The notes under the pieces were generated by a model. That model saw only the letters and a list, made by a program, of their open reading frames with translations, did not search any database and was not told the origin of the DNA. DNA of 64,000 nucleotides from Pseudolabrys sp. GTDB lineage: Bacteria > Pseudomonadota > Alphaproteobacteria > Rhizobiales > Xanthobacteraceae. The stretch is taken from NCBI GenBank assembly GCA_026125895.1, contig JAHCKG010000008.1, positions 90,798-154,797 of the forward strand, read 5' to 3'. The translations under genes and the position numbers were made by a program. This document shows positions 428-47,852 of the stretch, one piece after another; positions within the stretch are counted from its first letter, which is position 1, and each line of letters begins with the position of its first letter.

Positions 428-1684
428 TTACGCCGCCTTCAGCGTATCGAGCGCCTTGGCGAAGAAATCGACGCCGCCGAAATTGCCCGACTTGAGCGCC
501 AGCGCCACGGTGGCCGAGCCCTCGGTGGCGAGCGCCGGCACGCCGGGATCGATCTCCGGACCGATGGCGACGGCGGACAGGCCGAGCCCCGTCACCACCG
601 CGCCCGAGGTCTCGCCGCCGGCGACGACGACGCGATCGAAACCGCTCTGCACGACCTTGGCGGCGGCATCGGCGAACAGCGATTCCAGCCGGTGCGAGAG
701 TTTGTCCTGACCGTACTGCTTTTGTAGCGCGCGCACCCGATCGGGCGGCGCCGACGAATAGACCAGCGGATCTCGGCCGCGATGACCGCTGACGAATTCG
801 AGGATGGCATCGGCCGTCATGCGACCGTCCAGCACCTCGGCGATGTCGATGGCGAGCGAGGGATGCGACGCCTTGAACGCCTCGACCTGCGACAAGGTCG
901 CGCGCGAGCACGACCCGGCAAGCACGACGCCGGCGCCGCGGCCGCCGCGGAACGTGCGGCGCTCGCCGCTCGCCGCGCCCTTGTCGATGATGATCTGCGG
1001 CAGGCCGATCGCGATGCCCGAGCCGCCGGTCAGCAGCGGCGCGTCGGCGCAAGCGCGGCCGATGGCGATCAGATCGGCGTCCTCGACAGCATCGACGATC
1101 ACCAGCCACTCGTCTCGCGCCGCGGCCGCATCGAGCGCGGCGCGAATGGCCTCGCCGCCCTGCCGCACCGTCGCCCACGGCACAAGACCGACCGGATGCT
1201 GCGTCTGCAACGCCAGCCAGCGGCGGATGTCGGCGTCGGTCATCGGATTGAGCGGATGGTTTTCAAGCCCGGACTCGTTGAGCGGCTTGTCGCCGACGAA
1301 CAGATGACCCTGATAGATCGTGCGGCCCGTGGTCGGAAAAGCCGGACAGGCCGGCACGCCGCGCACCTTCAGCGCGGCCGCGAGCGCCTCGCCGACCGGA
1401 CCGATATTGCCGCGCGGCGTTGAATCGAAGGTGGAGCAGTATTTGAAAATGAACTGGCGGCAGCCTTGCGCCTTGAACCAGTCGAGCGCCTCGAGCGACT
1501 GCTTGGTCGCATCGGCGGCGTCGATCGAGCGCGTCTTGAGCGACACGACGCCGGCGTCGCAATCAGCTGCGGCCCGGCTTGCCGGAACGCCGAAGAATTG
1601 CGTCGTCGAAAGCCCGCCTTTGGCGAGGGTATTGGCGATATCGCTTGCCCCGGTGAAATCGTCCGCGATCACGCCAAGATACAT
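428..1684 (-). CDS. otnK: 3-oxo-tetronate 4-kinase (four-carbon acid sugar kinase)
   Basis: A 418-residue protein of the DUF1537/four-carbon acid sugar kinase family at its usual length. The N-terminal substrate domain begins with GVIADDFTGASD (residues 4-15), the family hallmark. The C-terminal nucleotide-binding domain carries the glycine-rich VVAGGETSGAVV. Known family members phosphorylate 3-oxo-tetronate at O4 using ATP in the cytosol. It follows the CoA-transferase gene by 30 bp and precedes otnI by 13 bp, so one transcript is likely. Together with otnC at 5724-6356 it supplies the isomerase-kinase-decarboxylase route to dihydroxyacetone phosphate. No tetronate dehydrogenase (LtnD type) is visible in the window. 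Confidence 0.9.
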   Translation of the reverse strand: MYLGVIADDFTGASDIANTLAKGGLSTTQFFGVPASRAAADCDAGVVSLKTRSIDAADATKQSLEALDWFKAQGCRQFIFKYCSTFDSTPRGNIGPVGEALAAALKVRGVPACPAFPTTGRTIYQGHLFVGDKPLNESGLENHPLNPMTDADIRRWLALQTQHPVGLVPWATVRQGGEAIRAALDAAAARDEWLVIVDAVEDADLIAIGRACADAPLLTGGSGIAIGLPQIIIDKGAASGERRTFRGGRGAGVVLAGSCSRATLSQVEAFKASHPSLAIDIAEVLDGRMTADAILEFVSGHRGRDPLVYSSAPPDRVRALQKQYGQDKLSHRLESLFADAAAKVVQSGFDRVVVAGGETSGAVVTGLGLSAVAIGPEIDPGVPALATEGSATVALALKSGNFGGVDFFAKALDTLKAA

Positions 1685-1714: not shown

Positions 1715-3331
1715 TCAATTTACCTGACGCAGCGGCGAGCGCTGCGACGCCTTGGCCCTGGCATTGGCCTTGACGTTCATGTCGGCCCGCAGATTCATCA
1801 GGCCGGGAGAGAATATCCGCTTATCCATCAGCTTCAAGTCGGCCGCGACCCTCGGGGTGAAGGCCATGTGCCGCAGGACGTCCTTTTCCAGATCGATGCC
1901 GGGCGCGATTTCGATGACCTCGAGCGCGCCATTCACCGCGCGCAGCACGGCGCGCTCGGTGACGAATAGCGCAGTGCGCCCCTCCTTCACCGCGAACGGT
2001 CCCGAATAGCTGATGTACTCGATCGCCTCGACGAATTTGCGGTGCGCACCCTCCTTGACGATCTTCAGCATGCCGTCCGCGCAGGCAACGTCGAGGCCGC
2101 CTGCCGTAAAGGTGCCGGAGAACACGACATGCCTGGCGTTCTGCGTGATGTTGATGAAGCCGCCGACGCCGACGATCTTGTCGGCGAAGCGCGTGATGTT
2201 CACGCTGCCGTAGCGATCGACCTCGGCGAAGGACAGGAAGGCAAGATCGAGGCCGCCGCCGTCGTAGAAATCGAACTGATAGGGTTGATCGACCACGCAG
2301 TCGTAATTCTGCGCCGTGCCGGAATCGGGGCCGGTGAGCGGCGCGCCGCCGACGAAGCCCTGCTCGTTGGTCAGCACGATGGTCTCGACAATGTCCTCCT
2401 CGGCCGCCACTGCGGCGATGCCGGTCGAGATGCCGGCGCCTAGGTTGCAGATCGCGCCCGGCGTGAACTCCATCGCGGCGCGGCGCGCCACAATCTTGCG
2501 CGGGCCGAACGGCAGCGGCTTCACCGACTCGAGCGGCACGCGCAGTTCGCCGGCATAGCTCGGGTTGTAGTCGGTCGCATAAGTCTGGCGCTGCTCGGGA
2601 TCGACGACGACGAAATCGACGAGTATGCCGGGGATCTTCACCGCCCGCGGCGACAGCACGCCGCGCCGCGCCATGCGCTTCACTTGCACGATGACGATGC
2701 CGCCGTTGCGGCGCGTAGCCTGCGCCATCGACAGGAATTCGCCCGGGATGGCCTCCTGCTCCATGCTGATATTGCCGTCCTCGTCGGCGGTCGTGCCGCG
2801 CAGGATGGCGACGTCGAACTTGAGCGGCTTGAAGCGCAGCCACTCCTCGCCGTCGATGGTCATCAGTTCGATCAATTCGTCCTTCGACGAGGCGTTCTGC
2901 CGGCCGCCGCCGTTGCGGGGGTCGATGAAGGTGTTGAGCCCGGTCTTGGTGATGAGGCCGGGGCGGCCGCCGGCGATGTCGCGCATCATCTGCGCCATCA
3001 CGCCCTGCGGCAGGATGTAAGACTCGATTTTGTTCTCCATCGCCAAGGTCATGAGCGGTGGCGAGTCGATCAGCGCGCTGGTGATGCTCTTCTTCAACAT
3101 CCCGGGGTGGCGGAAACGGGCGGCGCCCTTCAACTGCCGGTCACCGATGCCGACGACATGAATCAAGGTCAGGTCGCGCGGCGCGCTTTCGCTCAGGAAG
3201 CGGTGCTCGATCGCCTCGAGCACCGCTTCCGGTACGCCGTGACCGCCACCCGACCCGCTGACCAGAAGCCGCGTGCCGGAATTGACGAGTTGGGCCGCCT
3301 CGGCCGCGCTGAGGAGTTTCATGGGGGCCAC
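1715..3331 (-). CDS. Acyl-CoA:carboxylate CoA-transferase (family I, fused alpha-beta, YdiF-like)
   Basis: A 538-residue protein, the usual length for fused alpha/beta family I CoA-transferases (YdiF, propionate CoA-transferase). The N-terminal half starts LLSAAEAAQLVNSGTRLLVS and contains the GSGGGHGVPEAV nucleotide/CoA region. In the C-terminal half, TNEQGFVGGAP places the presumed catalytic glutamate at residue 323. The enzyme would move CoA between an acyl-CoA and a free acid in the cytosol; the substrate is unknown. It is the first gene of the minus operon with otnK and otnI and diverges from a MaoC hydratase. Neither CoA step belongs to the known tetronate pathway. The 14-bp palindrome at 3366-3379, 35-48 bp before the start codon, is a likely LacI-type operator. 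Confidence 0.85.
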   Translation of the reverse strand: MAPMKLLSAAEAAQLVNSGTRLLVSGSGGGHGVPEAVLEAIEHRFLSESAPRDLTLIHVVGIGDRQLKGAARFRHPGMLKKSITSALIDSPPLMTLAMENKIESYILPQGVMAQMMRDIAGGRPGLITKTGLNTFIDPRNGGGRQNASSKDELIELMTIDGEEWLRFKPLKFDVAILRGTTADEDGNISMEQEAIPGEFLSMAQATRRNGGIVIVQVKRMARRGVLSPRAVKIPGILVDFVVVDPEQRQTYATDYNPSYAGELRVPLESVKPLPFGPRKIVARRAAMEFTPGAICNLGAGISTGIAAVAAEEDIVETIVLTNEQGFVGGAPLTGPDSGTAQNYDCVVDQPYQFDFYDGGGLDLAFLSFAEVDRYGSVNITRFADKIVGVGGFINITQNARHVVFSGTFTAGGLDVACADGMLKIVKEGAHRKFVEAIEYISYSGPFAVKEGRTALFVTERAVLRAVNGALEVIEIAPGIDLEKDVLRHMAFTPRVAADLKLMDKRIFSPGLMNLRADMNVKANARAKASQRSPLRQVN

Positions 3332-3379: not shown

Positions 3380-3477
3380 TAAGAGCTAAGCGCCAGCCCC
3401 ATGTCAACATTTTGTTTGGGTCGCGGGCCCGCGTGGTGGCGGTTTCAACAATACTTCAACGATCGATGGGGAGACAG

Positions 3478-3945
3478 ATGGGCAAGTCAGGTCTGGATAC
3501 GGTCAAGGTCGGCGACACCTACAAGTTCGCCAAGACCGTGGGCGAAACCGACATCGTCATGTTCGCCGGCATCACCGGCGATTTCAGCGACACCCACGTC
3601 AACGACCAGTACATGAAGGAGCGCTCCAATCTCGGAGGGCGGATCGCGCACGGCGCGCTGCTGGTCGGCTACATGTCCACGGTCTCGACCATCTCCATCG
3701 CCCACATCATCCACCAGGAAGGCCTGACCGACTTCCCCGTGTCGGCCGGTTACGACAAGATCCGCTTCCTCAAGCCGACCCTGCTGGGCGACACGATTAC
3801 GTGCACTTACACGGTGGTCAGCGTGGACAAGGAAAAAGGGCGCAGCGTCGCCAAGGTCGAGGTCACCAACCAGACCGGTGAGCTCAAGGCGGTTGGGGAG
3901 CACATCATGCGCTGGGCCAAGAAGCTATCGTCGAACGCAGCATAG
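3478..3945 (+). CDS. MaoC-like (R)-specific enoyl-CoA hydratase
   Basis: A single hot-dog fold MaoC protein of 155 residues. The hydratase signature is visible: MFAGITGDFSDTHVN supplies the Asp and His of the active site, and GRIAHGALLVGY follows. ATG 3478 is chosen over upstream in-frame starts because a GGGGAG ribosome site sits 7 bp before it and the family N-terminus aligns there. It would add water to a 2-enoyl-CoA or act on a related thioester in the cytosol. It is the first gene of the plus operon MaoC-REHIPER-lacI-otnC. Pairing with a CoA-transferase across the promoter suggests the substrate is handled as a CoA ester. Confidence 0.85.
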   Translation: MGKSGLDTVKVGDTYKFAKTVGETDIVMFAGITGDFSDTHVNDQYMKERSNLGGRIAHGALLVGYMSTVSTISIAHIIHQEGLTDFPVSAGYDKIRFLKPTLLGDTITCTYTVVSVDKEKGRSVAKVEVTNQTGELKAVGEHIMRWAKKLSSNAA

Positions 3946-3957: not shown

Positions 3958-4659
3958 ATGGCTTTGTTGGGACAAGGACTGCTCGCGATCTGGAACGGCA
4001 TCTCCGATGCGCCGGGCGCCGAACTCGAATTCGTGCGCTGGCACATCCGAGAGCACATTCCGGAGCGCGTCGGCCTGCCCGGCTTTCTGCGCGGCCGGCG
4101 CTATGTGGCACTCAAGGGCCATCCGAAGTATTTCAATTTCTACGAGACCGAGAGCGTCCGCACGCTGGAATCGCCGGCCTATCTGGCGCGCCTCAACGAT
4201 CCGACGCCGTGGACCAAGGCCGTCGTCAAGGAATTCCGCGATACCTCCCGCACCTTGTGCAACGTGGTCTTGTCGCGCGGCGCCGGCGAAGGCGCCGTCA
4301 TCCTGACCATCCAGGTCGGCGGCGTCGCCGACGACGCGGCGTTCGCCACGGCCATGACGCGCACGCTGATTGGCGAGGTGCACCCGATGGACGGCATCAC
4401 CGCCGTCCATCTCGTAAAGGGCACCGAGCCGCAGATGAAAGCCGCGACCGCCGAGAAGGCCCTGCGCGGCGCGCCGGACCGGACCTGCGAATGGCTCCTG
4501 CTCGTCGAGGCGGCGGGCGCCGAATTCCTCGAAGCGGTCGAGGCGGGCCCGCTTTCCGCGGCGAATCTCGCTAAGATCGCGCCCGGCGCTGGGGTCACCC
4601 ATGGTACCTATAGCTTGCAATACGGCCTGAGCCAGATCGAATTAAGGACCTCGGATTGA
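3958..4659 (+). CDS. REHIPER-family protein 1 (uncharacterised; likely tandem ferredoxin-like fold)
   Basis: 233 residues, no signal peptide or membrane segment. I do not recognise a named function. Conserved points are W12-N13, W28-H29, the REHIPER block at 31-37, PGF at 41-43 and GRRYV at 46-50, then LNDPTPWTKA and FRDT near residue 100. Two more divergent copies with the same motifs and spacing occur at 43665-44336 and 58985-59689. The two halves each look like a beta-alpha-beta unit, so a dimeric alpha-beta barrel fold related to EthD/ABM proteins is plausible (inference). The invariant His residues could be catalytic. It lies 12 bp after the MaoC gene, and its stop TGA overlaps the TTG start of the LacI gene, so translation is probably coupled. 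Confidence 0.75.
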   Translation: MALLGQGLLAIWNGISDAPGAELEFVRWHIREHIPERVGLPGFLRGRRYVALKGHPKYFNFYETESVRTLESPAYLARLNDPTPWTKAVVKEFRDTSRTLCNVVLSRGAGEGAVILTIQVGGVADDAAFATAMTRTLIGEVHPMDGITAVHLVKGTEPQMKAATAEKALRGAPDRTCEWLLLVEAAGAEFLEAVEAGPLSAANLAKIAPGAGVTHGTYSLQYGLSQIELRTSD

Positions 4660-5720
4660 GCAGCCCGCGCGACAAGCGACGAACCAAGACTGCATCGCCG
4701 GCCCCGGCGCGCAGCGTCGGTCTTCGCGATGTCGCGCGCGTCGCCGGGGTCTCGACCGCCACCGTGTCCCGCGTCATCAACAGTCCCGATACCGTCTCCG
4801 AGGAATTGCGCGCTCGCGTCAATTCCGTGGTCCGCCATCTCGGCTGGGTCCCGCATGGCGCGGCCCGCGCGCTGGCGACGCGGCGGACCCAGACCATCGG
4901 TGCGGTGTTCCCCACCCTCACCCATGGCGACTTCGCCCGCGCCATTCAGGGCTTGCAGAACGAACTGTCGAAGTCAGGCCGCACGCTGCTGCTGGCGTGC
5001 TCGGAATACAGCCCCGAGCAGGAATACGAGCAGGTGCGCATGCTGATCGAGCGCGGCGTTGATGCCGTGCTGCTCGTCGGCGAGGCGCATCACCGCGATC
5101 TGTCCGAATTGCTCGAAAAGAACCACATCCCTTACGTCAACACGTTCGTCTATAACGCCGCCAGTCACGGCACCTGCGTCGGGCCGGACAATCGCAAGGC
5201 GCTTTACGAACTTACGCGCTATCTCATCGAGCTCGGCCATCGCCGCTTCGGCGTCGTCGCGCAAACCACGGAAAACAATGACCGCGCCGCGGCGCGCATG
5301 CGCGGCATCCGCGAGGCGCTGGCCGAGAAGGGCCTCGCCATCGAGCCGCGGCATTTCGTGCACGGCTTCTGGACCATTCAGGAGGGGCGCAACCTGTTCC
5401 GTCGCCTGCTCCAGGACAAACCGTGGCCGACGGCGGTGATCTGCGGCAACGCCTATCTCACGGTCGGCGCGCTGCTCGAAAGCCAGGCCATGGGCATCGC
5501 CGTGCCCGGCCAGATGTCGATCGTCGGCTACGACGATATCGAGATCATGGCGGAATTGCCCATTCCGCTCACGACCGTCCGCGTGTTGTCCGACGAAGTG
5601 GGCCGCCGCGCCGCGCGCCTGCTCATCGCCAAGCTGGAGGGCCGCGAGATCGACGAAAGCCTCGAATGTGCGGCCGAGATCATCGTGCGCCAGTCGTCCG
5701 GCCCGCCGCCGAAAGGATAG
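4656..5720 (+). CDS. LacI-family transcriptional regulator
   Basis: 354 residues: an N-terminal helix-turn-helix (about 22-42; LRDVARVAGVSTATVSRV) and hinge, then a periplasmic-binding-like effector domain with IGAVFPTLTHGDFARAI and a C-terminal MSIVGYDDIE segment typical of the family. The start is TTG 4656, which overlaps the preceding stop codon; AAGGA lies 7 bp upstream. It sits inside the plus operon and most likely binds the palindrome at 3366-3379. A tetronate, oxo-tetronate or related acid sugar is the expected inducer, by inference from the neighbouring otn genes. Confidence 0.9.
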   Translation: MSSPRDKRRTKTASPAPARSVGLRDVARVAGVSTATVSRVINSPDTVSEELRARVNSVVRHLGWVPHGAARALATRRTQTIGAVFPTLTHGDFARAIQGLQNELSKSGRTLLLACSEYSPEQEYEQVRMLIERGVDAVLLVGEAHHRDLSELLEKNHIPYVNTFVYNAASHGTCVGPDNRKALYELTRYLIELGHRRFGVVAQTTENNDRAAARMRGIREALAEKGLAIEPRHFVHGFWTIQEGRNLFRRLLQDKPWPTAVICGNAYLTVGALLESQAMGIAVPGQMSIVGYDDIEIMAELPIPLTTVRVLSDEVGRRAARLLIAKLEGREIDESLECAAEIIVRQSSGPPPKG

Positions 5721-5723
5721 AGC

Positions 5724-6356
5724 ATGACGTCAGCCAACACCGCGGAGCGCATCGTGCGCTTCGGCAAGTCGATGTTCGATCGCGGCCTGACCGCCGGCAC
5801 GTCGGGCAACATCAGCGTCCGCACCGACAACGGCTGGCTGATGACGCCGACCAATTCCTCGCTCGGCGACCTCGATCCGGAAACGCTGTCGCGGCTCGAC
5901 GAGAGCGGCAAGCTCACAGCCGGTCATGCGCCGACCAAGGAGGCCTTCCTGCATCGCGCGATGTACGAGATGCGCGGCGACTGCAAGGCGGTCGTGCACC
6001 TGCATTCGACGCATTCCGTCGCCGTGTCCTGCCTCGCCGACGTCAACCATCACAACGTGCTGCCGCCGATCACCGCCTATTACGCCATGCGCATCGGCAC
6101 GCTGCCGCTCATTCCGTATTTCAAACCCGGCGATGTGAAACTTGCCGACGCGGTGCGAGCCCTCGCCGGCAAGCACCATGCGGTGCTGCTCGCCAATCAC
6201 GGGCCGGTGGTGGCCGGCACGTCGCTCGACGCCGCGGTCGCAGCGATCGAAGAGCTCGAGGAGACGGCCAAGCTCTTCCTGCTGCTCGACGGTCACAAAG
6301 TGCGGCACCTGACGCCGGAGCAACTTGAGGAGCTCGGCGTCCAGTCGCTGCGCTGA
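5724..6356 (+). CDS. otnC: 3-oxo-tetronate 4-phosphate decarboxylase (class II aldolase family)
   Basis: 210 residues, close to E. coli OtnC (YgbL) along its whole length as I recall that sequence: GNISVRTDNGWLMTPT, the PTKEAFLH glutamate, the HLHSTHSVAVSC zinc-binding histidines and LLANHGPVVAG. Class II aldolase-fold enzymes use a divalent metal bound by His residues; OtnC decarboxylates 3-oxo-tetronate 4-phosphate to dihydroxyacetone phosphate. The gene begins 3 bp after the LacI stop, with AAGGA 7 bp before the ATG, and is the last gene of the plus operon. A fuculose-phosphate aldolase-like role is the alternative, but otnK and otnI nearby argue for OtnC. Confidence 0.88.
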   Translation: MTSANTAERIVRFGKSMFDRGLTAGTSGNISVRTDNGWLMTPTNSSLGDLDPETLSRLDESGKLTAGHAPTKEAFLHRAMYEMRGDCKAVVHLHSTHSVAVSCLADVNHHNVLPPITAYYAMRIGTLPLIPYFKPGDVKLADAVRALAGKHHAVLLANHGPVVAGTSLDAAVAAIEELEETAKLFLLLDGHKVRHLTPEQLEELGVQSLR

Positions 6357-6362: not shown

Positions 6363-7175
6363 TCAGGCCTTCAGCCCGAAGAATTCGAACAACGCATTCA
6401 CCTGTCCGGCGACCATCGCCTCGCCGCTCATGGTGCGGCAGCCGGATCGCCTCGCCAGCGTCAGGAGCGGCGTCGCGTCCGGACGCGGCACGATGTCGGC
6501 GACGAATAGCGACTTGTCGATGGCGTCGACCGCAAAGGGCAGCCCGTCGCCTGGCTTCATGCCGGCTGGCGTGGCGTTGACCAGCAAGGTCTTGCCACTC
6601 AGCGCCGGCGCGCCCGCTTGGGCGCGGCAATGCGGGTGCGCCTCGTTGATCATGGCGGCAAGCTTTTCCGCCTTGGCGAGGGTCTTGTCGAAGACGGTCA
6701 GTTCGGCGGCGCCGGCTTCGGCGAGCGAATCCGCGATCGCGCTGCCTGCACCGCCGGCGCCGAGCAGCATGACGCGCTGCCCTTTCGGCTCGCAACCCGA
6801 GGCGCGCAAGCCGCCGACGAAGCCCTGACCGTCGAAGATGTCACCCGACCAACGGCCGGCCGCCTCGCGGCGCATGGCGTTGATCGCGCCGGTGCGCTTT
6901 GCCGCCGGCAAGACGAGATCGACATGCTCCGCCACCGCATTCTTGAACGGCAAGGTGACGACGATGCCGTCCATGTTGGTGAGCGTCTTGAGGCCGCGCA
7001 TGCAGCCATCGAAGTCGCCGGCGGCGGCCGACAGCGGCACCATCGCCGCATTGACGCCCGCGGCAGCGAACCGTGCGTTCCACACCGCCGGCGATTTCGC
7101 CTGCGCGATCGGGTTGCCGATGATGCCGATGAGCCGGGTCGCCCCGTTGACGAGTTGAGCCGGCGCGTCCGCCAT
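6363..7175 (-). CDS. AroE-like dehydrogenase (shikimate dehydrogenase family, altered substrate motif)
   Basis: 270 residues, the normal AroE length. The frame is open further upstream, but ATG 7175 begins just before the typical AroE N-terminus (RLIGIIGNPIAQAKSPAVWN). Catalytic K78 (TLPFKNAV) and the DGQGF Asp are present, as is the LLGAGGAGSAI NAD(P) motif. The shikimate-binding SxS is altered: the first serine position is A26 (AQAKSP), whereas true AroE has SxSP. This and its operon position suggest a catabolic dehydrogenase acting on another small hydroxy acid rather than aromatic biosynthesis (inference). It is the last gene of the minus operon starting at 12194, 5 bp after the VOC gene. 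Confidence 0.8.
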   Translation of the reverse strand: MADAPAQLVNGATRLIGIIGNPIAQAKSPAVWNARFAAAGVNAAMVPLSAAAGDFDGCMRGLKTLTNMDGIVVTLPFKNAVAEHVDLVLPAAKRTGAINAMRREAAGRWSGDIFDGQGFVGGLRASGCEPKGQRVMLLGAGGAGSAIADSLAEAGAAELTVFDKTLAKAEKLAAMINEAHPHCRAQAGAPALSGKTLLVNATPAGMKPGDGLPFAVDAIDKSLFVADIVPRPDATPLLTLARRSGCRTMSGEAMVAGQVNALFEFFGLKA

Positions 7176-7180: not shown

Positions 7181-7714
7181 CTACACCTTGCGAATAGGGT
7201 CGCGGCCGTCCCAGGTGCGGGCCGCGTGATACATGCCCTCGTAGCGCTCGATCGACGCCGGGACGATCTCGATCAGTTCGATGAAGCCGGGAAAGCCGCG
7301 CCCCGCGTCGAAATGGGCGACGCGAGTGCCGGCCGGCGACTGGTCGGTGAACACCAGCTCGTAGCCGCGGGCGGCATAGTCGGCGCAATCGGCGTCGAAG
7401 TTTACCGAGGCGATGCCGTGATGATGAAACCCGTATCCGTTGCGCGCGAAGGCTTCGCGGTAGACCGAGGGGCCGTCGTCGTGCTGCTGGATCAGCTCGA
7501 TCATCATATGCCCGGAATAAGCAATCGCGATGGAGAGCCGCAGCTCCTGCGCCACGCCGCGATAGACCGGCTTGCGCGCCATCAGCGGACCGCGCAGGAA
7601 CCACGGCCCGATTTTCAACTCCGTCGCGTAGGACAGCGCAGCAGCTTCCGCGTCCGCCACGGTATAGGCGAACTGGATGATGCTGCCGGGCGGCTGTCCG
7701 GCGACGAGCGTCAT
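7181..7714 (-). CDS. VOC (glyoxalase/bleomycin-resistance-like) family protein
   Basis: 177 residues with two VOC-type beta-alpha-beta-beta-beta units: a first half with IIQFAYTVADAEAAALSYA and HMMIELIQQ, and a second with GYGFHHHGIASVNF and GFIELIEIV. These look like the metal-ligand His and Glu positions of vicinal oxygen chelate enzymes. ATG 7714 overlaps the TGA of the aldolase gene (ATGA at 7711-7714), so the two are translationally coupled. VOC proteins catalyse isomerisation, epimerisation or ring cleavage around a divalent metal. Here it probably acts on the product or substrate of the kinase/aldolase pair; the exact reaction is unknown. Confidence 0.75.
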   Translation of the reverse strand: MTLVAGQPPGSIIQFAYTVADAEAAALSYATELKIGPWFLRGPLMARKPVYRGVAQELRLSIAIAYSGHMMIELIQQHDDGPSVYREAFARNGYGFHHHGIASVNFDADCADYAARGYELVFTDQSPAGTRVAHFDAGRGFPGFIELIEIVPASIERYEGMYHAARTWDGRDPIRKV

Positions 7715-8596
7715 GCGGCGCCCGCCTGGTGCGCCGACTGCACGATGTCGATGAGCCGGCGAAGCCGCGGCACCGACTCGCGCTTGAGATCGGGGATCGG
7801 ATCGGCCTTCGCCGCGGCATCGGCCCAGATGGCGCGACCGGCAAGGAAGCCGCTGGCGCCGTTCTCGCAGCACAGCCGCACGGTTTCCGGAAAGTCCTTC
7901 GCCTCGACGCCGTTCGACAGCACGACCCAGGGCTGCTTGATCGCTCTGGTGAGGTCGCGGGCATACCGGCGCGACATCGCCGAGTTGGCCCGGCAGATAG
8001 CCCGGCACTTCGGCCTTGTAGACGTCCGGCCCGGCGGCGACGAGTTCACGCGCGGCTTCGATCACGGCTTCGCCGTGTTCGCGCGTCGTCTTGAACTTGT
8101 CGCCGTTCGCATCGCGCACGATGCCTTCGACCAGCGAGACCGTGCCGGTCTTGCGCGCCAGTTCGACGAACTTCGTCACCGTGTCGCGGCGGAAGGCCGG
8201 GTCGCTGTCCTTGTACCAGATGATGAGCAGCTTGATCGCGGCCGCGCCAAGATCGCGGATCAGCTCCGGCGTGACCTTCGGATCGAGACCTGACCTGGTC
8301 ACCGGACCGCCCGCGGCTTGCTCGAAGTCATCGGCGGACAGGATGAGCGGCACGCCCTTCGGCACCTTCTTCATCGCGTCGCGCCCAAGCCCGGAATCGA
8401 TGAGGACGGCGGACGCCATCGGCGCCAGGATCTCCGCCGCCGCCACCTTGAAGGCGGACAACTGGCCATCGGAAATCGTGCCCTCGTCGCGGCCGTTGGC
8501 GATGATGGTGCGCAACGAGCCGCGCTGGTCCAGCGCCAGCATGGTCAGGCTGCCGTTCTTCATTAGCGGCCGCAGTTTGTCCGAAGCTTGAGACAT
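7711..8596 (-). pseudogene. LacD/YihT-type class I aldolase, interrupted by a one-base frameshift
   Basis: The N-terminal two thirds (MSQASDKLRPLMKNGSLTML, LALDQRGSL, AIKLLIIWYKD, VYKAEVPGY with the likely Schiff-base lysine) is a tagatose-bisphosphate/sulfofructose-phosphate aldolase-type barrel. The C-terminal third (YARDLTRAIKQPWVVLSNGV and onward) lies in another frame. The span is 886 nt, one more than a multiple of three. Removing one C at 7966-7967 joins the parts as GDVAPYARDLTRAI and gives an unbroken 294-residue protein ending in the ATGA overlap with the VOC gene. So this is either a recent inactivation or a sequencing error. ATG 8596 has AAGGAG 5 bp upstream. The kinase gene lies directly upstream, so kinase and aldolase probably form a phosphorylate-and-cleave pair. 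Confidence 0.8.
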
Positions 8597-8605: not shown

Positions 8606-9526
8606 TTATGTCGCGCCGAGCGCCGTCGCCATCGGCGGGCTCTTCGTATTCATCGCCAAAAAGGCCTCGAGTTCGTCGCGCCGCGGCGCCATCGACTGGC
8701 CGTCCACGGCCCGGCACGACAGCGCGGCGCAGGCATTGCCCCAGAGCAATACTTCCGGCAGCGGCTTGTCGAGACAGATCGCGGCGAGGATCGCGCCGTG
8801 GAAGACGTCGCCGGCCCCGAGCGTGCTGACGATATCGACCGTGAAACCGGGAACGTGGCGGAAGTCGCCGCTGCTGAGCAGGTAGGAGCCGCGCGCGCCG
8901 TCGGTCGCCACCACCTCGCCGGCGCCGTCGTCGATGGCGCATTGCAGAAGTTGGCGCGGCGGGCGCGCGGCGCCGTAGTCGGCCGCAAGCCGGGCCATGG
9001 TCGGCGCATAGAGGTCGATCTCGGCGAGCTTCAGGTCCGGCACCGGATTGCCGGCGTCGATGCTGATCTTGACGCCCTTGCTCACGATGCCGCGCAGGCT
9101 GCGGACCTTTTCGTGCCCGACATCGTCGAAGTGGACATACTGCGCTTTCAGCGGCGGCATGCGCGACAAATCCGGGCTCGGCGCGCGCTCGGTGACGATG
9201 GCGCGGGTGCCGGCGCCGCGCGTGACGATGTTTGAGCTGCGCGAAGTGTGAACGTCGGCGCGGCGCTCGACCCAGTCGGTCGCGATGCCCTCGTCTTCCA
9301 GGCGCTGCATGATGGTGTCGCCCGGCGCATCGCAGCCAATGACGCCACAATAAGCCACCGGCACACCGAGCCGCGCGATCGCAACCGCCGCGGTGATCGC
9401 CTGGCCGCCGATGCCGTCGTACAGGTGCTCGACGAGAGTCCGGCTGTCCTGCGTTGGAAACGCATCGACCAGCGCGTTGAGATCGACCTTTGCGCCGCCG
9501 ACGCAGATCACCGCAACGTCACGCAT
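8606..9526 (-). CDS. PfkB-family sugar kinase
   Basis: 306 residues, ribokinase/PfkB fold: N-terminal VICVGGAKVDLNALVDAFP, DGIGGQAITAAVAIARLG, and the catalytic GAGD at 237-240 within STLGAGDVFHGA. It would phosphorylate a sugar, ketose or deoxy-sugar acid with ATP. The start overlaps the end of the ABC ATPase gene by 8 bp, and the aldolase gene starts 9 bp after its stop. A PfkB kinase next to a LacD-type aldolase is the arrangement of YihV/YihT (sulfofructose) and tagatose-6-phosphate pathways. The importer in the same operon is of the NitT/TauT class, so the substrate is uncertain. Confidence 0.85.
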   Translation of the reverse strand: MRDVAVICVGGAKVDLNALVDAFPTQDSRTLVEHLYDGIGGQAITAAVAIARLGVPVAYCGVIGCDAPGDTIMQRLEDEGIATDWVERRADVHTSRSSNIVTRGAGTRAIVTERAPSPDLSRMPPLKAQYVHFDDVGHEKVRSLRGIVSKGVKISIDAGNPVPDLKLAEIDLYAPTMARLAADYGAARPPRQLLQCAIDDGAGEVVATDGARGSYLLSSGDFRHVPGFTVDIVSTLGAGDVFHGAILAAICLDKPLPEVLLWGNACAALSCRAVDGQSMAPRRDELEAFLAMNTKSPPMATALGAT

Positions 9527-10382
9527 CCGCCTGGCGCCCTCCCAAAGCGGCGGTCGCGCCGTCGCGCCGGATCACGCCGAGGCGCGAGAAGTGCTCATAG
9601 ATACGTTTGGAGTATTCGACCAGCGCCGGATCCTCACCCAGTTCGAGCGGGCGCGGACGCGGAATGTCGATGCGCAGTTCCTCAATGACGCGGCCCGGCG
9701 ACGGCGACATCACCAGCACGCGGTCGGCGAGGCCGACGGCCTCTTCGACGCTGTGCGTGATGAACAGCACCGTTGGCCGGTCGTTCATCCACAACCTTTC
9801 AAGATCGTAACGAACCTGAAGCCGCGTCAGCGCGTCGAGCGCGCCGAACGGCTCGTCCATCAGGAGCACGGACGGCCGCAGCACCAGGGCCCGCGCCAAC
9901 GACACGCGCTGGCGCATGCCGCCGGAGAGCTGATGCGGATAGCGTTTGGCCGCATCGGCGCTGAGGCCGAGACGATCGAACAGCTCGCGGGTGCGCTCGC
10001 GCACCGGCGCCATCGGCAGTTTCCGGATGACGCCCTGCAGCAGGACATTGTCCTCCGCCGTGCGGAAGTACATCAGCAGATGGTCCTGGAACACGATCCC
10101 GACATCGGTCATCGCGCCGGTCAGCGGCTTGCCGCCGACGCGGATCGTGCCGCTGGTCGGCTCGAGCAAGCCGGCCACCATCAGCATCAACGTGCTCTTG
10201 CCGCAGCCGCTCGGCCCCACCACCGCGACGAACTCGCCGGGCTGTATATCGATCTTGAGCGGGCGCAGCGCTTCGAACGGCTTGTCCGTCTCCACGCCGA
10301 AGACCTTGCCGACGTGATCGATTTCCAGCCGGACGCCGCGGCCGGCGGCGTCCGTTGTTGATATGGGGCTCGTCAGCGACAT
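9519..10382 (-). CDS. NitT/TauT-family ABC transporter ATP-binding protein
   Basis: 287 residues. Walker A GPSGCGKST at 56-64, Q-loop VFQDHLL, signature LSGGMRQR, Walker B LLMDEPFGALD and the H-loop FITHSVEEA are all present. The DEPFGALD and IDIPRPRP segments are typical of SsuB/TauB/NrtD-type ATPases. It energises uptake at the inner membrane with the permease at 11481-12194 and the binding protein at 10401-11429. Its stop overlaps the kinase start, so transport and phosphorylation are made from one transcript. Confidence 0.9.
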   Translation of the reverse strand: MSLTSPISTTDAAGRGVRLEIDHVGKVFGVETDKPFEALRPLKIDIQPGEFVAVVGPSGCGKSTLMLMVAGLLEPTSGTIRVGGKPLTGAMTDVGIVFQDHLLMYFRTAEDNVLLQGVIRKLPMAPVRERTRELFDRLGLSADAAKRYPHQLSGGMRQRVSLARALVLRPSVLLMDEPFGALDALTRLQVRYDLERLWMNDRPTVLFITHSVEEAVGLADRVLVMSPSPGRVIEELRIDIPRPRPLELGEDPALVEYSKRIYEHFSRLGVIRRDGATAALGGRQADA

Positions 10383-10400
10383 GCCGCAGCTTTCCTCAGG

Positions 10401-11429
10401 TCACGACTTGCTGGCCGGACAGGCGCGCAGTTCGCTGTCCGCCGGTAGGAAGTCATAGGTGTAGTACTTCGTCGCCGGCACGTCCGCCGGCAGGATGCCG
10501 ACCTTGGCGAAGACCTTGACGGTGTCGTCCCACTGTTTCGGCATGGCCTTGCCGATGAACTTGGCGTTGTTGGCGCACATCAGGATGCGGGTTGCCTCGA
10601 TCTGCGGCGGCGACAGCTTTTCGTTGGCGTCGGGGAACATCTTCTTGAGCGCCGCGGTCGCCTCCGCGGGATTGTCGATCGCCGCGTACCAGCCCTTCAG
10701 GCTGGCGGCGACGAACTTCTTCACGACGTCGGGATGCTTGGCCAGAAACTCGTCGCTGGCGATGATCGAAGTCGAAACCGTCGGCGCGCCGTTCTCGCTG
10801 AACAGATAGCTGTCGAACTGCTGGTTCTGCGCGCGGAGCTGGATATCGTACTGGTCGACCGAGCCGAGAATGACCTCGACCGAGCCCTGAATCAGCGACG
10901 ACACCATCGCCTCCGGCGGCATATTGATCAGCTTGATGTCGCTTTCCTTGAGGTTGTTTGCCGCGAGCACGAGCGGGAACATCGCGACCTGCGAGCCGGC
11001 TGTCGGCATCGCCACGGTGCGGCCCTTGATGTCGGCGACGTTCTTGAGGCCGGTCTTCTTCAGCGCGGTGACCGCGTTCGGCGCGGCCTGCAGGATCGTG
11101 GCGATGATCTTCACCTTGGCGCCCTGCGAGATCAGCTTCATGACTGGCGAGGAATCGGCGAAGCCGATGTCGTATTTGCCGACCGATAGGAGTTGCGCGG
11201 TGGTCTGCGAACCGTTGCCCGGCTCAATGGTGACGTCGAGACCGGCGTCCTTGTAGAAGCCCTTCTGAACCGCCAGCTCGAAGCCGGCATTGTAGCCGGC
11301 CGGCGGCACGTTCAGCAGGAAGGTGAGTTTCGTCTGCGCCGATGCCGGCGCGGCGGCAAACAGCGCCGCGGCGACCGCAGCCGCGCCGACGCCCTGCGCG
11401 ATGGAAGCGAACAGGCCCTTCTTGCTCAT
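10401..11429 (-). CDS. NitT/TauT-family ABC transporter substrate-binding protein
   Basis: 342 residues with a signal peptide (about 1-31, cleavage after ASA) and the SsuA/THI5-like N-terminus KLTFLLNVPPAGYNAGFELA. QKGFYKDAGLDVTIEPGNGS is the usual family block. It is periplasmic and delivers substrate to the permease next door. GGAGG sits 7 bp before the ATG. The family transports nitrate, sulfonates, taurine, pyrimidine precursors and aromatic acids, so the ligand cannot be read from sequence. The catabolic genes downstream suggest a phosphorylatable sugar-like compound. Confidence 0.88.
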   Translation of the reverse strand: MSKKGLFASIAQGVGAAAVAAALFAAAPASAQTKLTFLLNVPPAGYNAGFELAVQKGFYKDAGLDVTIEPGNGSQTTAQLLSVGKYDIGFADSSPVMKLISQGAKVKIIATILQAAPNAVTALKKTGLKNVADIKGRTVAMPTAGSQVAMFPLVLAANNLKESDIKLINMPPEAMVSSLIQGSVEVILGSVDQYDIQLRAQNQQFDSYLFSENGAPTVSTSIIASDEFLAKHPDVVKKFVAASLKGWYAAIDNPAEATAALKKMFPDANEKLSPPQIEATRILMCANNAKFIGKAMPKQWDDTVKVFAKVGILPADVPATKYYTYDFLPADSELRACPASKS

Positions 11430-11480: not shown

Positions 11481-12194
11481 CTAATGGCGCAACCAGGGCG
11501 CCATGACGTATTCGCAGATCTCGACGATGAGATTGAGCGCGAGACCGATGACCGTGAGCAGGAACAGCACGGCGAACACGCGCGTCGTGTCGAGATTGGC
11601 GGTGCCCTGCAACAGAATGTAGCCGAGCCCTTTGTTGGAGCCGACGAACTCCGCGACGATGGCGGCGGTCGCGGCAATGGTGGCTGATGTCTTGAGGCCG
11701 CCGAATATCACCGGAATGGCCGCCGGGAACCGCAGATACCGGAAGGTTTGCCAGGTCGTCGCACCCATGGAGCGCGTTAGGAACAGCAACCGTTTGTCGA
11801 TGATCTGGAAGCCGGCGATGCTCGCCAGCAGCAGCGGGAAGAACGTCAGCAGCAGCGTCAGCATGACTTTCGACGTCAGCCCGAAGCCCAGCCAGACGAC
11901 GAAGAGCGGCGCGATGGCGATCTTCGGGATGAGCTGCACAAAAACGAGGAACGGATAGAGCATGCGCCGCGCCAGCGGCGACAGCGCGATTAGCACGCCG
12001 AGCGGGATCGACATGACGACCGACAGCGCAAAACCGAGCAGAATCTCCTGGATCGTCACCCAGCTGTGAAAGAGGAAGCTGCTTCCGTCGGCATAGATGC
12101 GCGGCAGCACGTCTTCCGGCGGCGGCAGCAGAAACGCGGGCACCTTGAAGATTGCGACCGCGGACCACCACGCTGCCAGCAGCGCGATGAACAC
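11481..12194 (-). CDS. NitT/TauT-family ABC transporter permease
   Basis: 237 residues with about six membrane segments and the EAA loop region (TRSMGATTWQTFRYLRFPAA). The frame is open upstream to an in-frame TAA near 12260 but contains no ATG, GTG or TTG before GTG 12194, so GTG is taken as the start. The protein is slightly shorter than usual at its N-terminus. It forms the inner-membrane channel of the importer with 9519-10382. It is the first gene of the minus operon, and the FAH-family gene diverges from it over 120 bp. Confidence 0.85.
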   Translation of the reverse strand: MFIALLAAWWSAVAIFKVPAFLLPPPEDVLPRIYADGSSFLFHSWVTIQEILLGFALSVVMSIPLGVLIALSPLARRMLYPFLVFVQLIPKIAIAPLFVVWLGFGLTSKVMLTLLLTFFPLLLASIAGFQIIDKRLLFLTRSMGATTWQTFRYLRFPAAIPVIFGGLKTSATIAATAAIVAEFVGSNKGLGYILLQGTANLDTTRVFAVLFLLTVIGLALNLIVEICEYVMAPWLRH

Positions 12195-12314
12195 CGCGGC
12201 CGGCAGAAAAGCATTGAGCGACTTTGCGGTGGCGACGGTTTGACGATCAACATCGCCGATGATTTATTCCGCAACAAATTTGCAGAACAACAATCATCGA
12301 AGAGAGGAAACACC

Positions 12315-13163
12315 ATGAAGCTTGTGCGGTTCGGACCCGTGGGTCGCGAAAAGCCCGGCATCATCGGCACCGACGGCAAGATACGCGATCTGTCGAAGGT
12401 GGTGCCCGATATTGCCGGCGACACCTTGTCGCCGAAAGGACTGGCGAAGATCCGCAAGACCGATCTGAAGAAGCTGCCGGTCGTGCGCGGCAACGTGCGG
12501 CTCGGCCCCTGCGTCGGCAACACCCGGCAATTCGTCGCGATCGGGCTGAACTATACCGATCACGCGATCGAGACCAACGCGCCGATCCCGAAGGAGCCGA
12601 TCGTCTTCGCCAAGGCCGTGACTTGCATCAGCGGCCCCTACGACGACGTCGTGCTGCCGAAAGGGTCGACAAAGAGCGACTGGGAAGTCGAACTCTGCAT
12701 CGTGATCGGCAGCCGCGCGCGGTATCTCACCAAAGCCAAGGCGATGGACGTCGTCGCCGGCTACACGATCTGCAACGACATCTCGGAGCGCGAGTTTCAG
12801 CTCGAGCGCGAGACCCAGTGGCACAAGGGCAAGGGATGCGAAACCTTCGGGCCGATTGGCCCTTGGCTTGTGACCAAGGACGAGATCAAGGACGTCCAGA
12901 AGCTCGACCTCTACCTTGACGTCAACGGCAAGCGGCTGCAGAACTCGACCACGAAAAACATGATCTTCACGATCGCGCACATCGTCTGGTACTGCTCGCA
13001 GTTCTTCGTGCTCGAGCCCGGCGACCTCATCACCACCGGCACGCCGCCCGGCGTCGGGCTCGGCATGAAGCCGCCGCGCTATCTCAAGCCGGGCGATGAG
13101 ATGAGGCTCGGCATCACCGGTCTCGGCGAGCAGCACCAGAAGGTGCGGAAGTTCACGAAATAG
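12315..13163 (+). CDS. Fumarylacetoacetate hydrolase (FAH) family protein
   Basis: 282 residues with the C-terminal FAH catalytic domain. FVAIGLNYTDHAIE, the metal-binding DWEVELCIVIG and TICNDISEREFQ, and LITTGTPPGVGLG are all visible. ATG 12315 is chosen, not the longer upstream frame, because AGAGGAAA lies 6 bp before it and MKLVRFGPVG is the usual family start. Family members hydrolyse or decarboxylate 2,4-diketo acids (ureidoglycolate lyase, fumarylpyruvate hydrolase, diketo-deoxyfuconate hydrolase). It diverges from the ABC/kinase/aldolase operon and may process an oxo-acid from the same pathway (inference). Confidence 0.85.
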   Translation: MKLVRFGPVGREKPGIIGTDGKIRDLSKVVPDIAGDTLSPKGLAKIRKTDLKKLPVVRGNVRLGPCVGNTRQFVAIGLNYTDHAIETNAPIPKEPIVFAKAVTCISGPYDDVVLPKGSTKSDWEVELCIVIGSRARYLTKAKAMDVVAGYTICNDISEREFQLERETQWHKGKGCETFGPIGPWLVTKDEIKDVQKLDLYLDVNGKRLQNSTTKNMIFTIAHIVWYCSQFFVLEPGDLITTGTPPGVGLGMKPPRYLKPGDEMRLGITGLGEQHQKVRKFTK

Positions 13164-43235: not shown

Positions 43236-43664
43236 ATGCCGACCACGCATTACGACGGACCGCTGCCGCTCTCCGACGCGAAGACGAAGCTCAAGCTCTC
43301 CAAGCCGCTCGAGGATGCCTCCTTCGATCGCGACGGGCCGCGTGCCTTCGTCGAATATCGCGATCTCGGTCTGTCCGAAGCGTCCGGCGGCAAGATCGGC
43401 GCCAGACACATCCGCGCCATCCGCCCGTTCGACAAGGAAACCGGCTGGCACTGGCACGACATGTCCGGCCACTTCGTCTACATCCTGAAGGGCTGGGTCA
43501 AATTTCGCTTCGAGGGCGTCGAAGACGAGGTCACGGTGAAAGCCGGCACCTGTCTGAGCCAGCCAGCGGGCGTGCCGCATAACGTGGTCGGGCAATCCGA
43601 CGATCTCGAACTGATCGAGATCAATCTGCCGGCCGATTACGCCACCATCGATCTTCCGCGCTGA
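43236..43664 (+). CDS. Cupin-domain protein
   Basis: 142 residues, a single double-stranded beta-helix. GWHWHDMSGHFVYILKGWVK gives the first cupin motif with its metal-binding His residues; QPAGVPHNVVGQSDDLELIE gives the second. Cupins of this size are small-molecule dioxygenases, isomerases or sensors. It converges directly on the REHIPER protein 2 gene (stops adjacent). No clear substrate. Confidence 0.8.
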   Translation: MPTTHYDGPLPLSDAKTKLKLSKPLEDASFDRDGPRAFVEYRDLGLSEASGGKIGARHIRAIRPFDKETGWHWHDMSGHFVYILKGWVKFRFEGVEDEVTVKAGTCLSQPAGVPHNVVGQSDDLELIEINLPADYATIDLPR

Positions 43665-44336
43665 TCAGGCGCGGACATCGGCGAGTGAAAACTCCAGCCG
43701 GTAAAGGCCCTTTTCCACCGCGCCGGTGCCGCCAAGCCGCGCCAGCTCGGCCGATAGCGCCTCGCCCGCAGCATCGACCGCGGCTGGCGACGAGCCTTCG
43801 ATCATGACGATCCAGTTCGGCACGTCGACCTGACGGCCTTTGCGCTCGGCGGTTTCGATGCCGCTCGCCGCGCTGTCGGCGATGCACAGATGCGTGCCGC
43901 TGATGCCTTTCATGGCGCCGATCTTATCGAGCGCGGCGACGATGCCCTGCTCCAGCCCGGCGCCGCGGTCCGCTTCCGCGTCGAAACGCACGGTCAGCAT
44001 CATGCCGCCGTCGCCGCTGCCGCGCGAATAACGCGTCGCACAGACGCCGCGCAGCGTATTGCGGAATTCGGCGGTCGCCTCCCTGGTCCAGGGCGTCGGG
44101 TTGTTGAGCCGTTCCAGATAGGCGGCGCCGGTCAGCACTGCCTGATCGGCGGCTTCATAGAGCGTGTAATAAGCCGGCGTGCCGTATTCGGCGACATAAC
44201 GGCGGCCGCGCAGGAAGCCTGGAATGCCGATGCGCTCCGGGATGTGTTCGCGGTTATGCCACTCGATGAAATTGTCCCGGCCTTGCGGCGTGATGTCGTT
44301 CCAGATCGCCACCACGGCGCTCCCAAGCAATGCCAT
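43665..44336 (-). CDS. REHIPER-family protein 2 (uncharacterised)
   Basis: 223 residues, the closest of the two relatives to the copy at 3958-4659: AIWNDITPQ, WHNREHIPER at 26-35, IPGFLRGRRYVAEYG and LERLNNPTPWTREATAEFR. No signal peptide. It is the last gene of the IclR-headed operon, 10 bp after the SDR gene. Conserved His and Arg residues suggest an active site; no function is known to me. The C-terminal half repeats a ferredoxin-like pattern, as in copy 1. Confidence 0.75.
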   Translation of the reverse strand: MALLGSAVVAIWNDITPQGRDNFIEWHNREHIPERIGIPGFLRGRRYVAEYGTPAYYTLYEAADQAVLTGAAYLERLNNPTPWTREATAEFRNTLRGVCATRYSRGSGDGGMMLTVRFDAEADRGAGLEQGIVAALDKIGAMKGISGTHLCIADSAASGIETAERKGRQVDVPNWIVMIEGSSPAAVDAAGEALSAELARLGGTGAVEKGLYRLEFSLADVRA

Positions 44337-44346: not shown

Positions 44347-45102
44347 TTAGTAAGTCGCGCGCCCGCCGGACAGATCGAACACCGCGCCGGTCGAAAAGCT
44401 GCATTCCGGCGAGCACAGCCAGGTCACCATCGCCGCGACTTCGGCCGGCTCGAGAAAGCGCTTCATCGGGATGCGCGAGAGAATGTCGGCCAGCCGCTCC
44501 TTCGGCGCGTCGATGCTCATGGCCGTGAGCGAGGCCGCGGGTGTAATGGCGTTGACCAGAATATTCGACGTCGCCAGCTCCTTGCCGAGGCTCTTGGTCA
44601 GCGCCACGACGCCGGCTTTCGCCGCGCTGTAGGCCGCTGCCTGCGCCATGCCTTCCTTGGCCTGGATCGACGCGACATTGACGATGCGACCGAATTGCGT
44701 CTCCGCCGCGCTCTCGATCATCAGCGGCACCAGTTCGCGGCAGACGTGGAAGACGCCCTTGAGATTGACGTCAATGATACGATTGAATTCGTCGAGCGGA
44801 ATATCCCAGGTCGGCCGCACGTCGCCGACGATGCCCGCATTGTTGATGAGTATGTCGAGCCGGCCGAAGCGGCGGCGCAGATCGGCGGCGGCAGCCGCGA
44901 TGCTGTCCGGGCTCGTCACGTCGGCCGCATGGGTCGCAAAGCGGGAGAGATCGGCGCGCGCCAGCGCGGCCTCCAGATCCCACAACACCACCGTGGCGCC
45001 GCAGGCCGCGAGCCGCTCGCGGATCGCCTGGCCGAAACCACCGGCGGCGCCCGTGAGAACGGCGATCTTGCCGGACAAATCGTAGGTCGCTGCGGGTTGC
45101 AT
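44347..45102 (-). CDS. Short-chain dehydrogenase/reductase
   Basis: 251 residues. The cofactor site TGAAGGFGQAI, NNAGIVG and the catalytic YSAAK (with upstream Ser in NVASIQ) mark a classical SDR. ATG 45102 is chosen; a TTG at 45126 overlapping the ABC ATPase stop would add eight residues. It would oxidise a hydroxyl or reduce a ketone of the imported compound, with REHIPER protein 2 acting next (inference from gene order). Confidence 0.85.
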   Translation of the reverse strand: MQPAATYDLSGKIAVLTGAAGGFGQAIRERLAACGATVVLWDLEAALARADLSRFATHAADVTSPDSIAAAAADLRRRFGRLDILINNAGIVGDVRPTWDIPLDEFNRIIDVNLKGVFHVCRELVPLMIESAAETQFGRIVNVASIQAKEGMAQAAAYSAAKAGVVALTKSLGKELATSNILVNAITPAASLTAMSIDAPKERLADILSRIPMKRFLEPAEVAAMVTWLCSPECSFSTGAVFDLSGGRATY

Positions 45103-45122
45103 GATTTGCCTTGCCTGCCCGG

Positions 45123-46714: not shown

Positions 46715-46799
46715 GGTTGGCCTGTGACAACGGGGGCAAACGCGGTGCCCGCCTCCGCGGCCGCCCGAACATGGGTGCCGCGAAGGCGAAGCAGCGCGA

Positions 46800-47801: not shown

Positions 47802-47852
47802 TGTTACCTCCCTATGTTTTCAAGTTTTAATCTTGGCCGTCAGACGAACCGT

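Follow-up and report, generated by a model that had tools for sequence, protein, structure and literature searches.

The window, a stretch of 64,000 nucleotides of DNA from Pseudolabrys sp., encodes three proteins (copies 1 to 3, Table 1) that share a WHxREHxPER motif, which raises the question of what kind of protein family this is and what its members do. The initial annotation regarded them as an unnamed family with no assigned function, and a literature search, with most subscription journals outside its scope, returned no title on the family among the matches listed.

Results and discussion

Three long-diverged copies in one window

All three open reading frames are present exactly where, and with exactly the sizes, that the initial annotation had given, and an alignment of the three proteins contains every shared element it had named. 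Besides the WHxREHxPER motif, these are WN at residues 12-13, PG at 41-42, RRYV at 47-50, PTxW at 82-85 and FR at 93-94 (numbering of copy 1, here and below). In the alignment of the three, copy 2 is 39% and copy 3 is 29% identical to copy 1. Searched against its own genome, a draft assembly with 50 contigs and 4.52 Mb in total, copy 1 matched copy 2 at an E-value of 4.8e-47 over residues 1-228 and copy 3 at 3.3e-24 over residues 4-154, so that their likeness is not due to chance. The same search gave two further members beyond the window, one of them truncated by a contig end, and the genome therefore contains at least five family copies. Judged by their sequences, copies 1 to 3 are clearly homologous and constitute a real multi-copy family.

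A recent tandem duplication had been considered unlikely, in agreement with a tree of 85 rows in which the three copies fall into separate groups. Copy 1 branches with Rhizobiales and further Alphaproteobacteria, and copy 2 is placed next to Agrobacterium and Arsenicitalea. Copy 3 shares a long branch with one further protein of the same genus, a placement that is unsure given that the tree tool warns on long branches. On this phylogenetic basis, the copies are old, long-diverged paralogues.

Members of the family occur in 25 of the 40 genomes of the relatives search, the window's own genome counted. A subfamily with WFQxEH instead of WHxREH is present in at least 17 of 24 genomes of the genus, again with the own genome included. 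Scanning with the pattern WHx[RGE]EH[IVM]PE yielded 257 sites encoding a relative, the best 80 of which are the 80 loci considered below. Of these loci, 29 belong to clade A (copy 1 type), 40 to clade B (copy 2 type) and 11 to Rokubacteria; nine of the 80, absent from the initial gene calls, were assigned to their clades by hand, outside the tree. One copy-2-type gene (L084) comes from a MAG bearing the label Klebsiella pneumoniae, in which its contig of 4.7 kb was probably binned by error.

Table 1. The three family members of the window and the predicted genes around them
Feature	Position	Strand	Basis and remarks
Copy 1 (W1)	3958..4659	+	233 aa; tandem ferredoxin-like protein; WHIREHIPER = residues 28-37
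Copy 2 (W2)	43665..44336	-	223 aa; same family as copy 1; motif WHNREHIPER
Copy 3 (W3)	58985..59689	+	234 aa; same family as copy 1; motif WHTREHVPER; most divergent of the three
3-oxo-tetronate kinase OtnK, DUF1537	428..1684	-	NF043035, 542.4 vs 350 bits; Pfam SBD_N/NBD_C
CoA-transferase, divergent from copy 1	1715..3331	-	PF01144; cluster 7, within 10 kb in 25/29 clade-A loci
MaoC-like hydratase, directly upstream of copy 1	3412..3945	+	PF01575; cluster 8, in 22/29 clade-A loci
LacI regulator, directly downstream of copy 1	4656..5720	+	PF00356/PF13377; cluster 5, in 27/29 clade-A loci
3-oxo-tetronate 4-phosphate decarboxylase OtnC	5724..6356	+	NF043034, 316.2 vs 250 bits
AroE-like (shikimate dehydrogenase family) dehydrogenase	6363..7175	-	Pfam; cluster 4, in 36/69 non-Rokubacteria loci
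DeoC/LacD-type aldolase fused to glyoxalase-like domain	7181..8563	-	
PfkB-family sugar kinase	8606..9526	-	
ABC importer ATPase and NMT1-type substrate-binding protein	9519..11429	-	Pfam finds no permease adjoining
FAH-superfamily hydrolase	12066..13163	+	PF01557; closest to 2,4-didehydro-3-deoxy-L-rhamnonate hydrolase, NF053535, 414.7 vs 500 bits (under cut-off)
Cupin adjoining copy 2	43236..43664	+	PF07883; cluster 16, in 11/40 clade-B loci; recurrent partner
SDR, directly upstream of copy 2	44347..45126	-	same strand as copy 2; cluster 11, in 13/40 clade-B loci
NMT1-type ABC importer and IclR regulator, copy 2 locus	45123..49495	-	
SDR, NMT1-type ABC importer and FAD oxidoreductase near copy 3	52543..57919	-	
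LysR regulator, directly upstream of copy 3	58022..58981	+	

Fold and structural matches

It had been supposed from the sequence that both halves of these proteins are ferredoxin-like. AlphaFold models of copy 1 (mean pLDDT 93.2, pTM 0.90) and copy 3 (mean pLDDT 90.6, pTM 0.88) indeed have the same fold, with two consecutive ferredoxin-like units and the same order of elements; copy 2, being 39% identical to copy 1, is represented by one row in the input alignments of both models. In the copy 1 model, unit 1 has four strands (7-15, 43-53, 58-64, 93-108) and the helices 21-38 and 67-71/73-80. Unit 2 likewise has four strands (114-121, 147-155, 179-185, 212-225), and its helices are 126-141 and 188-196.

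Foldseek searches against the PDB, represented here by the best 50 of 1252 and the best 50 of 1179 matches, gave the anthrone oxidase-like protein 5f9p as the best match of both models, with an E-value of 7e-10 and a TM of 0.65 for copy 1 and a TM range of about 0.6 to 0.66 over both. In this top rank the copies resemble the anthrone oxidase-like and ABM monooxygenases, from which they differ by a sequence identity of only 11-12% and by the lack of a match to the ABM model. Other high matches were a sulfur oxygenase reductase, the putative monooxygenases 3mcs/3f44 and PenE (9kdp), and HmoB, chlorite dismutase/HemQ and bacterial chalcone isomerase were also included. The top matches, the chalcone isomerase among them, are two-unit proteins of this kind, which we take to be members of the dimeric alpha/beta-barrel fold. 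The hallmark of this superfamily is a beta-alpha-beta-beta-alpha-beta domain whose pairing is achieved either by dimerisation or by tandem fusion, and two such units are present in each of the two models. Based on sequence and predicted structure, we assign the copies to the dimeric alpha/beta-barrel superfamily, as proteins with two ferredoxin-like units in tandem.

The two-unit reading is derived from the models and from relatives that carry the motif twice (see below), not from sequence likeness between the halves. Internal duplication was rejected at the sequence level, the N-terminal and C-terminal halves reaching just 1.3-3.7% in HHalign. A direct match to a PDB sequence was rejected as well, with nothing below an E-value of 0.4 for copy 1 or 1.3 for profile A2 and none at all for the distant relative L034.

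Relation to DUF4286 and EthD

In Pfam, copies 1 to 3 stay under every cut-off, and in NCBIfam they have zero matches up to an E-value of 10. DUF4286 (PF14114, cut-off 25.8 bits) is approached by copy 1 with 12.9 and by copy 2 with 11.7 bits and leaves copy 3 unmatched. EthD (PF07110, cut-off 22 bits), ABM (PF03992, 23.1 bits) and NIPSNAP (PF07978, 22.3 bits) match none of the three, and only 1 of 13 members matches ABM, at an E-value of 0.14.

The connection is made by distant relatives. Profile A1, built from the three proteins, matches L034 at 8.3e-14 and L029 at 1.1e-12, and both of these exceed the DUF4286 cut-off with 36.1 and 35.7 bits, respectively. L034 also passes EthD with 29.6 bits and L029 is narrowly under it with 20.9, and a tblastn search with L034 leads to family members in Paraburkholderia at 3e-8 to 2e-7. 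Because L034 and L029 link them transitively, copies 1 to 3 are tied to DUF4286 and EthD and, as far as sequence comparison tells, are a divergent tandem branch of this group.

Both L034 and L029 contain W-x3-[ED]-H-I-P in each of their halves, whereas in copies 1 to 3, aligned with them, the motif is restricted to the N-terminal half and the C-terminal half is devoid of it. At most one active site of such a kind is therefore expected, and the comparison suggests that two sites became one.

The family is not entirely unnamed, as had been claimed, since seven among 40 listed plasmid relatives go under the name 'DUF4286 family protein' and the two-motif relatives pass DUF4286, one of them also EthD. 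The remaining plasmid relatives listed are 'hypothetical protein' or unannotated under the match, one having an overlapping named neighbour too. What separates the copies from DUF4286 is that they stay under its cut-off and carry the motif in only one of their two units. The suspected proximity to EthD and ABM was borne out, and comparison with the EthD, ABM and NIPSNAP profiles, as recommended in the initial annotation, gave a divided result, with no Pfam match for the copies but a weak likeness in HHalign (13-16% for NIPSNAP against the N-terminal half). With EthD, the family shares a histidine at the matching place, mostly as H-x-P and often followed by PG and RRY, and tandem EthD proteins exist too; the differences are the absence of a Pfam-level match for copies 1 to 3 and the weakness of the HHalign likeness. 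Proteins with two EthD matches per open frame were seen in several Alphaproteobacteria (G050, G066, G078 and G106). The statement that no function is assigned still stands, as Pfam, NCBIfam and the PDB sequence matches assign no reaction.

Conserved residues

Ten residues, W28, E32, H33, E36, R37, G42, R48, Y62, Y75 and R98, are identical in all 98 aligned proteins and all of them lie in the N-terminal half; R47 is kept in 97 of 98. The 98 rows consist of the 80 loci, the three window proteins and 15 selected relatives (L007 and L113 being the same gene), and they omit the cut gene L005, nine further WFQxEH members, L012, L014-L017, L019, L021, L024 and L026 and the distant L028-L030, L033 and L034, some of which lack E36 and R37. 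In a 9-row alignment with L034, L029 and L028, W28, H33, G42, R48, Y62, Y75 and R98 are still invariant. As the search pattern covers residues 28-36 and fixes W28, E32, H33 and E36, conservation there is partly selected, and that of R37, G42, R48, Y62, Y75 and R98 is unaffected by it.

The initial annotation had called the WHxREHxPER motif invariant, which applies to W28, E32, H33, E36 and R37 but not to the first histidine, H29, which is His in 88 of the 98 proteins and Phe or Tyr in the other 10. It had also seen an active site in the conserved His, Arg and Glu residues; these are among the best-conserved ones and are likely to make up an active site. In the C-terminal half, E166 is kept in 95 and R170 in 93 of 98, and one might guess that this region could cover the active site. 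A helical-wheel argument was rejected, as the invariant helix-1 residues 28, 32, 33, 36 and 37 show no clustering towards a single side of the helix (p 0.27); part of the motif's role may therefore be structural. F29 is combined with H49 in 8 of 98 proteins, all of the WFQxEH subfamily, the others having mostly H29 with Y49 or F49, a pattern resembling a shift of the histidine from helix 1 to strand 2. As independent evidence this swap was dropped, being limited to one subfamily.

In the copy 1 model, H29 and H33 are four apart on the helix, and H29-x-x-E-H33 could bind a metal if the family were a heme- or metal-binding barrel enzyme in the manner of HmoB/HemQ or sulfur oxygenase reductase, all found among the Foldseek matches. 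We consider such an enzyme improbable: the variation of H29 weakens a metal site on H29/H33, and the query-normalised TM to the listed heme barrels is about 0.4 to 0.55.

A catalytic precedent and a tentative reaction type

Bacterial chalcone isomerase is described as having two ferredoxin-like domains, one of them catalytic (PMC9694015). Its His33 removes the proton at C3 of the flavanone, and the His33Ala variant is inactive (PMC9694015; PMC8361940). The PDB chain of the Eubacterium ramulus enzyme (4d06, 8b7u) reads RWIYKVHIPDS, in which W-x4-H-x-P equals W28...H33-x-P35 of copy 1, so that the window motif has the pattern that holds the catalytic histidine of this enzyme. The motif histidine is residue 34 in the 283-residue chain and residue 33 in the 282-residue chain, and for the latter reason it is taken to be the published His33. 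A weak HHalign alignment places the chalcone isomerase motif on helix 1, and W-x4-H-x-P, regardless of position, appears in 257 of 20,000 shuffles of the chalcone isomerase sequence. EthD domains have H-x-P at the matching place in 24 of 28 cases, and the EthD profile aligns its histidine to a histidine of 4-methylmuconolactone methylisomerase, at an E-value of only 0.04.

Beyond the motif, the N-terminal half and chalcone isomerase show no significant similarity, with HHalign values of 0.4-0.5% (N-terminal part) and 0.2-0.3% (whole chain) and about -1 bit in hmmsearch, and the gene neighbourhoods examined show nothing flavonoid-like. EthD reaches 8.9% in HHalign with the N-half profile of the family and 27% once L034-like sequences, which are themselves EthD-like, are added. 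We regard the motif likeness to chalcone isomerase and EthD as a lead to the mechanism, not as proof of descent.

With somewhat less than even confidence, we propose that the family members are cofactor-free acid/base enzymes of the isomerase/lyase type with a single N-terminal active site centred on His33. His33 in helix 1 would serve as the acid/base and take a proton next to a carbonyl, Arg48, Arg98, Tyr62 and Tyr75 would bind the carboxylate and the enolate of the substrate, and the C-terminal half, lacking the motif, would complete the barrel. The chemistry would then probably be an isomerisation, or a beta-elimination or ring opening, of a polyhydroxylated keto-acid.

It counts against an isomerase that the best Foldseek match is anthrone oxidase-like and no isomerase, and the family could also be a cofactor-free monooxygenase of the ABM/anthrone-oxidase kind, which would oxygenate an enolised phenol or quinol-like intermediate. 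Both models have 5f9p as best match, with 3mcs/3f44 and PenE ranking high too, and the C-half profile has its best HHalign match with ABM (27%), a result that favours such a monooxygenase as much as an isomerase or lyase. Asn13 in strand 1 (Asn in 61 of 98 proteins) may in addition match the Asn of the IsdG triad, described as Asn6/Trp66/His76 (PMC4835899), and two neighbourhoods contain an intradiol dioxygenase and other aromatic-ring genes. On the other hand, Trp85 varies across 13 rows, the ABM model of Pfam matches none of copies 1 to 3 and many loci carry sugar-acid-type genes, and we therefore hold a monooxygenase to be unlikely.

Gene neighbourhoods

The initial annotation placed each copy with an oxidoreductase and a regulator, which is loosely true. 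Copy 1 has the LacI gene adjacent, the AroE-like dehydrogenase at about 1.7 kb and MaoC as its nearest upstream neighbour; copy 2 has the SDR adjacent and the IclR gene at about 4.3 kb; copy 3 has the LysR gene adjacent and the FAD oxidoreductase at about 1.1 kb. For each of the 17 listed models of shikimate dehydrogenase, the AroE-like dehydrogenase scores below the cut-off and is therefore probably a paralogue. In a second genome of the genus, the counterpart of copy 3 again lies alongside an FAD oxidoreductase, a permease and an SDR, and the copy 3 locus thus looks like a stable unit.

Other genes of the window were noted in passing. Adjoining the copy 1 locus, genes for a glutamine-synthetase-like protein, an aldehyde dehydrogenase and an iron-containing alcohol dehydrogenase follow one another (14746-18762, +), and between the copy 2 and copy 3 loci there are three predicted genes without a Pfam match at 1e-4 (49818-52304, -). 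A NIPSNAP protein (PF07978, 109.5 bits) is encoded 3.5 kb from copy 3 (63231-63542, -), and on Sinorhizobium meliloti pRM41A a NIPSNAP gene is found near a family member with two genes between them.

The gene-neighbourhood analysis recommended in the initial annotation was carried out on the 80 loci, and catabolic partners recur in many of them. Within 10 kb, the 29 loci of clade A contain genes for LacI (27), CoA-transferase (25), MaoC (22), AroE-like (20) and FAH (12) proteins as well as D-erythronate dehydrogenase (10), OtnI (7), OtnK (6) and OtnC (6) types. Within the same distance, the 40 loci of clade B contain IclR (32), FAH (26), the galactarate/altronate dehydratase family (21), MFS (21), the 2-keto-4-pentenoate hydratase type (20), GFO/IDH (20) and AroE-like genes (16). 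An FAH-type cluster is present within 10 kb in 40 of the 80 loci, and the 11 Rokubacteria loci are without any named partner cluster within seven genes. All labels were taken from one or a few annotated representatives of clusters formed by single linkage at 38% identity, which leaves remoter homologues uncounted. Of the representatives from the relatives' loci, one in the D-erythronate dehydrogenase cluster scores above the cut-off of its model (393.6 vs 325) and one in the 2-oxo-tetronate isomerase cluster is narrowly under (312.7 vs 325).

The 69 loci outside Rokubacteria, one of them from Verrucomicrobiota, amount to 1.23 Mb, and AroE-like genes accompany the family in 36 of them; 0.43 would be expected from 60 Pfam matches in 169.5 Mb, the 41 genomes of the window's order. 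Of 18 annotated plasmid regions, five contain a type II dehydroquinate dehydratase, where the 46 matches in those 41 genomes lead one to expect 0.08. In both comparisons the background is the window's order, whereas the loci come from several orders, are mutually related and hence not independent, and were counted by cluster or annotation. The 18 regions, whose gene tables have gaps, were selected from 40 listed among the 74 matching plasmid records. They include one with a type I dehydroquinate dehydratase, which is excluded from the five, and three with a 'shikimate dehydrogenase'. Nine of the 18 have neither a dehydroquinate dehydratase (I or II) nor a 'shikimate dehydrogenase', and one of these nine is cyclitol-like, with two thiamine-diphosphate enzymes, Gfo/Idh/MocA, a sugar phosphate isomerase and a cupin. 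Three of the 18 are without any named partner link.

In the WFQxEH subfamily, represented by L214-L218 from five genomes of the genus, a RidA-family gene lies within two genes in 5/5 loci and the family gene is located between an aminotransferase and a CinA gene in 3/5, a context unlike that of the window copies. Seen from the genes around them, copies 1 to 3 are encoded in clusters that look catabolic, for organic acids. The variation of the neighbourhoods (Rokubacteria, three plasmid regions, WFQxEH subfamily) counts against an isomerase or lyase.

EthD-like proteins have been suspected of a non-catalytic or accessory binding role, and the family might likewise carry or sense a pathway intermediate as a ligand-binding protein, for which the widely differing chemistry of the genes around it between loci would speak. 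We think this unlikely, as ten residues conserved in 98/98, among them two Glu, one His, two Tyr and three Arg, are more than would be expected for a binder. The sugar-acid neighbours would also suit a sugar or sugar-acid mutarotase similar to RhaM, but RhaM consists of just one domain, with 105 model positions, and the N-terminal half reaches only about 1% in HHalign against the RhaM set, which holds 4 sequences only, so that this role appears highly improbable.

A possible pathway at the copy 1 locus

The copy 1 locus extends over 13 kb (428-13163). If, as tentatively proposed, the family enzyme is an isomerase or lyase, the FAH hydrolase of this locus would cleave its product, and OtnK and OtnC would channel a four-carbon tetronate into central metabolism. 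Enzymes of the FAH superfamily can cleave 2,4-dioxo acids to pyruvate and a second acid, which is glycolate in the pentose case (PMC6336799). Should the second acid be a tetronate, the substrate would have seven carbons, like quinate or shikimate.

A more far-reaching idea, and quite an unlikely one in our estimation, is that the family represents a new cofactor-free lyase/isomerase class in an undescribed route for C7 acids of the quinate/shikimate type that would bypass protocatechuate. In such a route the AroE-like dehydrogenase, or a dehydroquinate-dehydratase-like partner, would prepare a ring ketone, the family enzyme would eliminate or open the ring, and the product, a 2,4-dioxo C7 acid, would be split by the FAH hydrolase to give pyruvate plus a C4 tetronate, which OtnK and OtnC would take into central metabolism. 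This would fit because the carbon count is right (7 = 3 + 4) and both OtnK and OtnC are over their cut-offs.

Conclusion

EthD, DUF4286, bacterial chalcone isomerase and the family described here may have the helix with W-x4-H-x-P in common as a catalytic feature. In the 18 annotated regions the family gene is called 'hypothetical protein' or 'DUF4286 family protein' alone. The family is now tied to catabolic partners and to one candidate catalytic residue, which makes its function directly testable.
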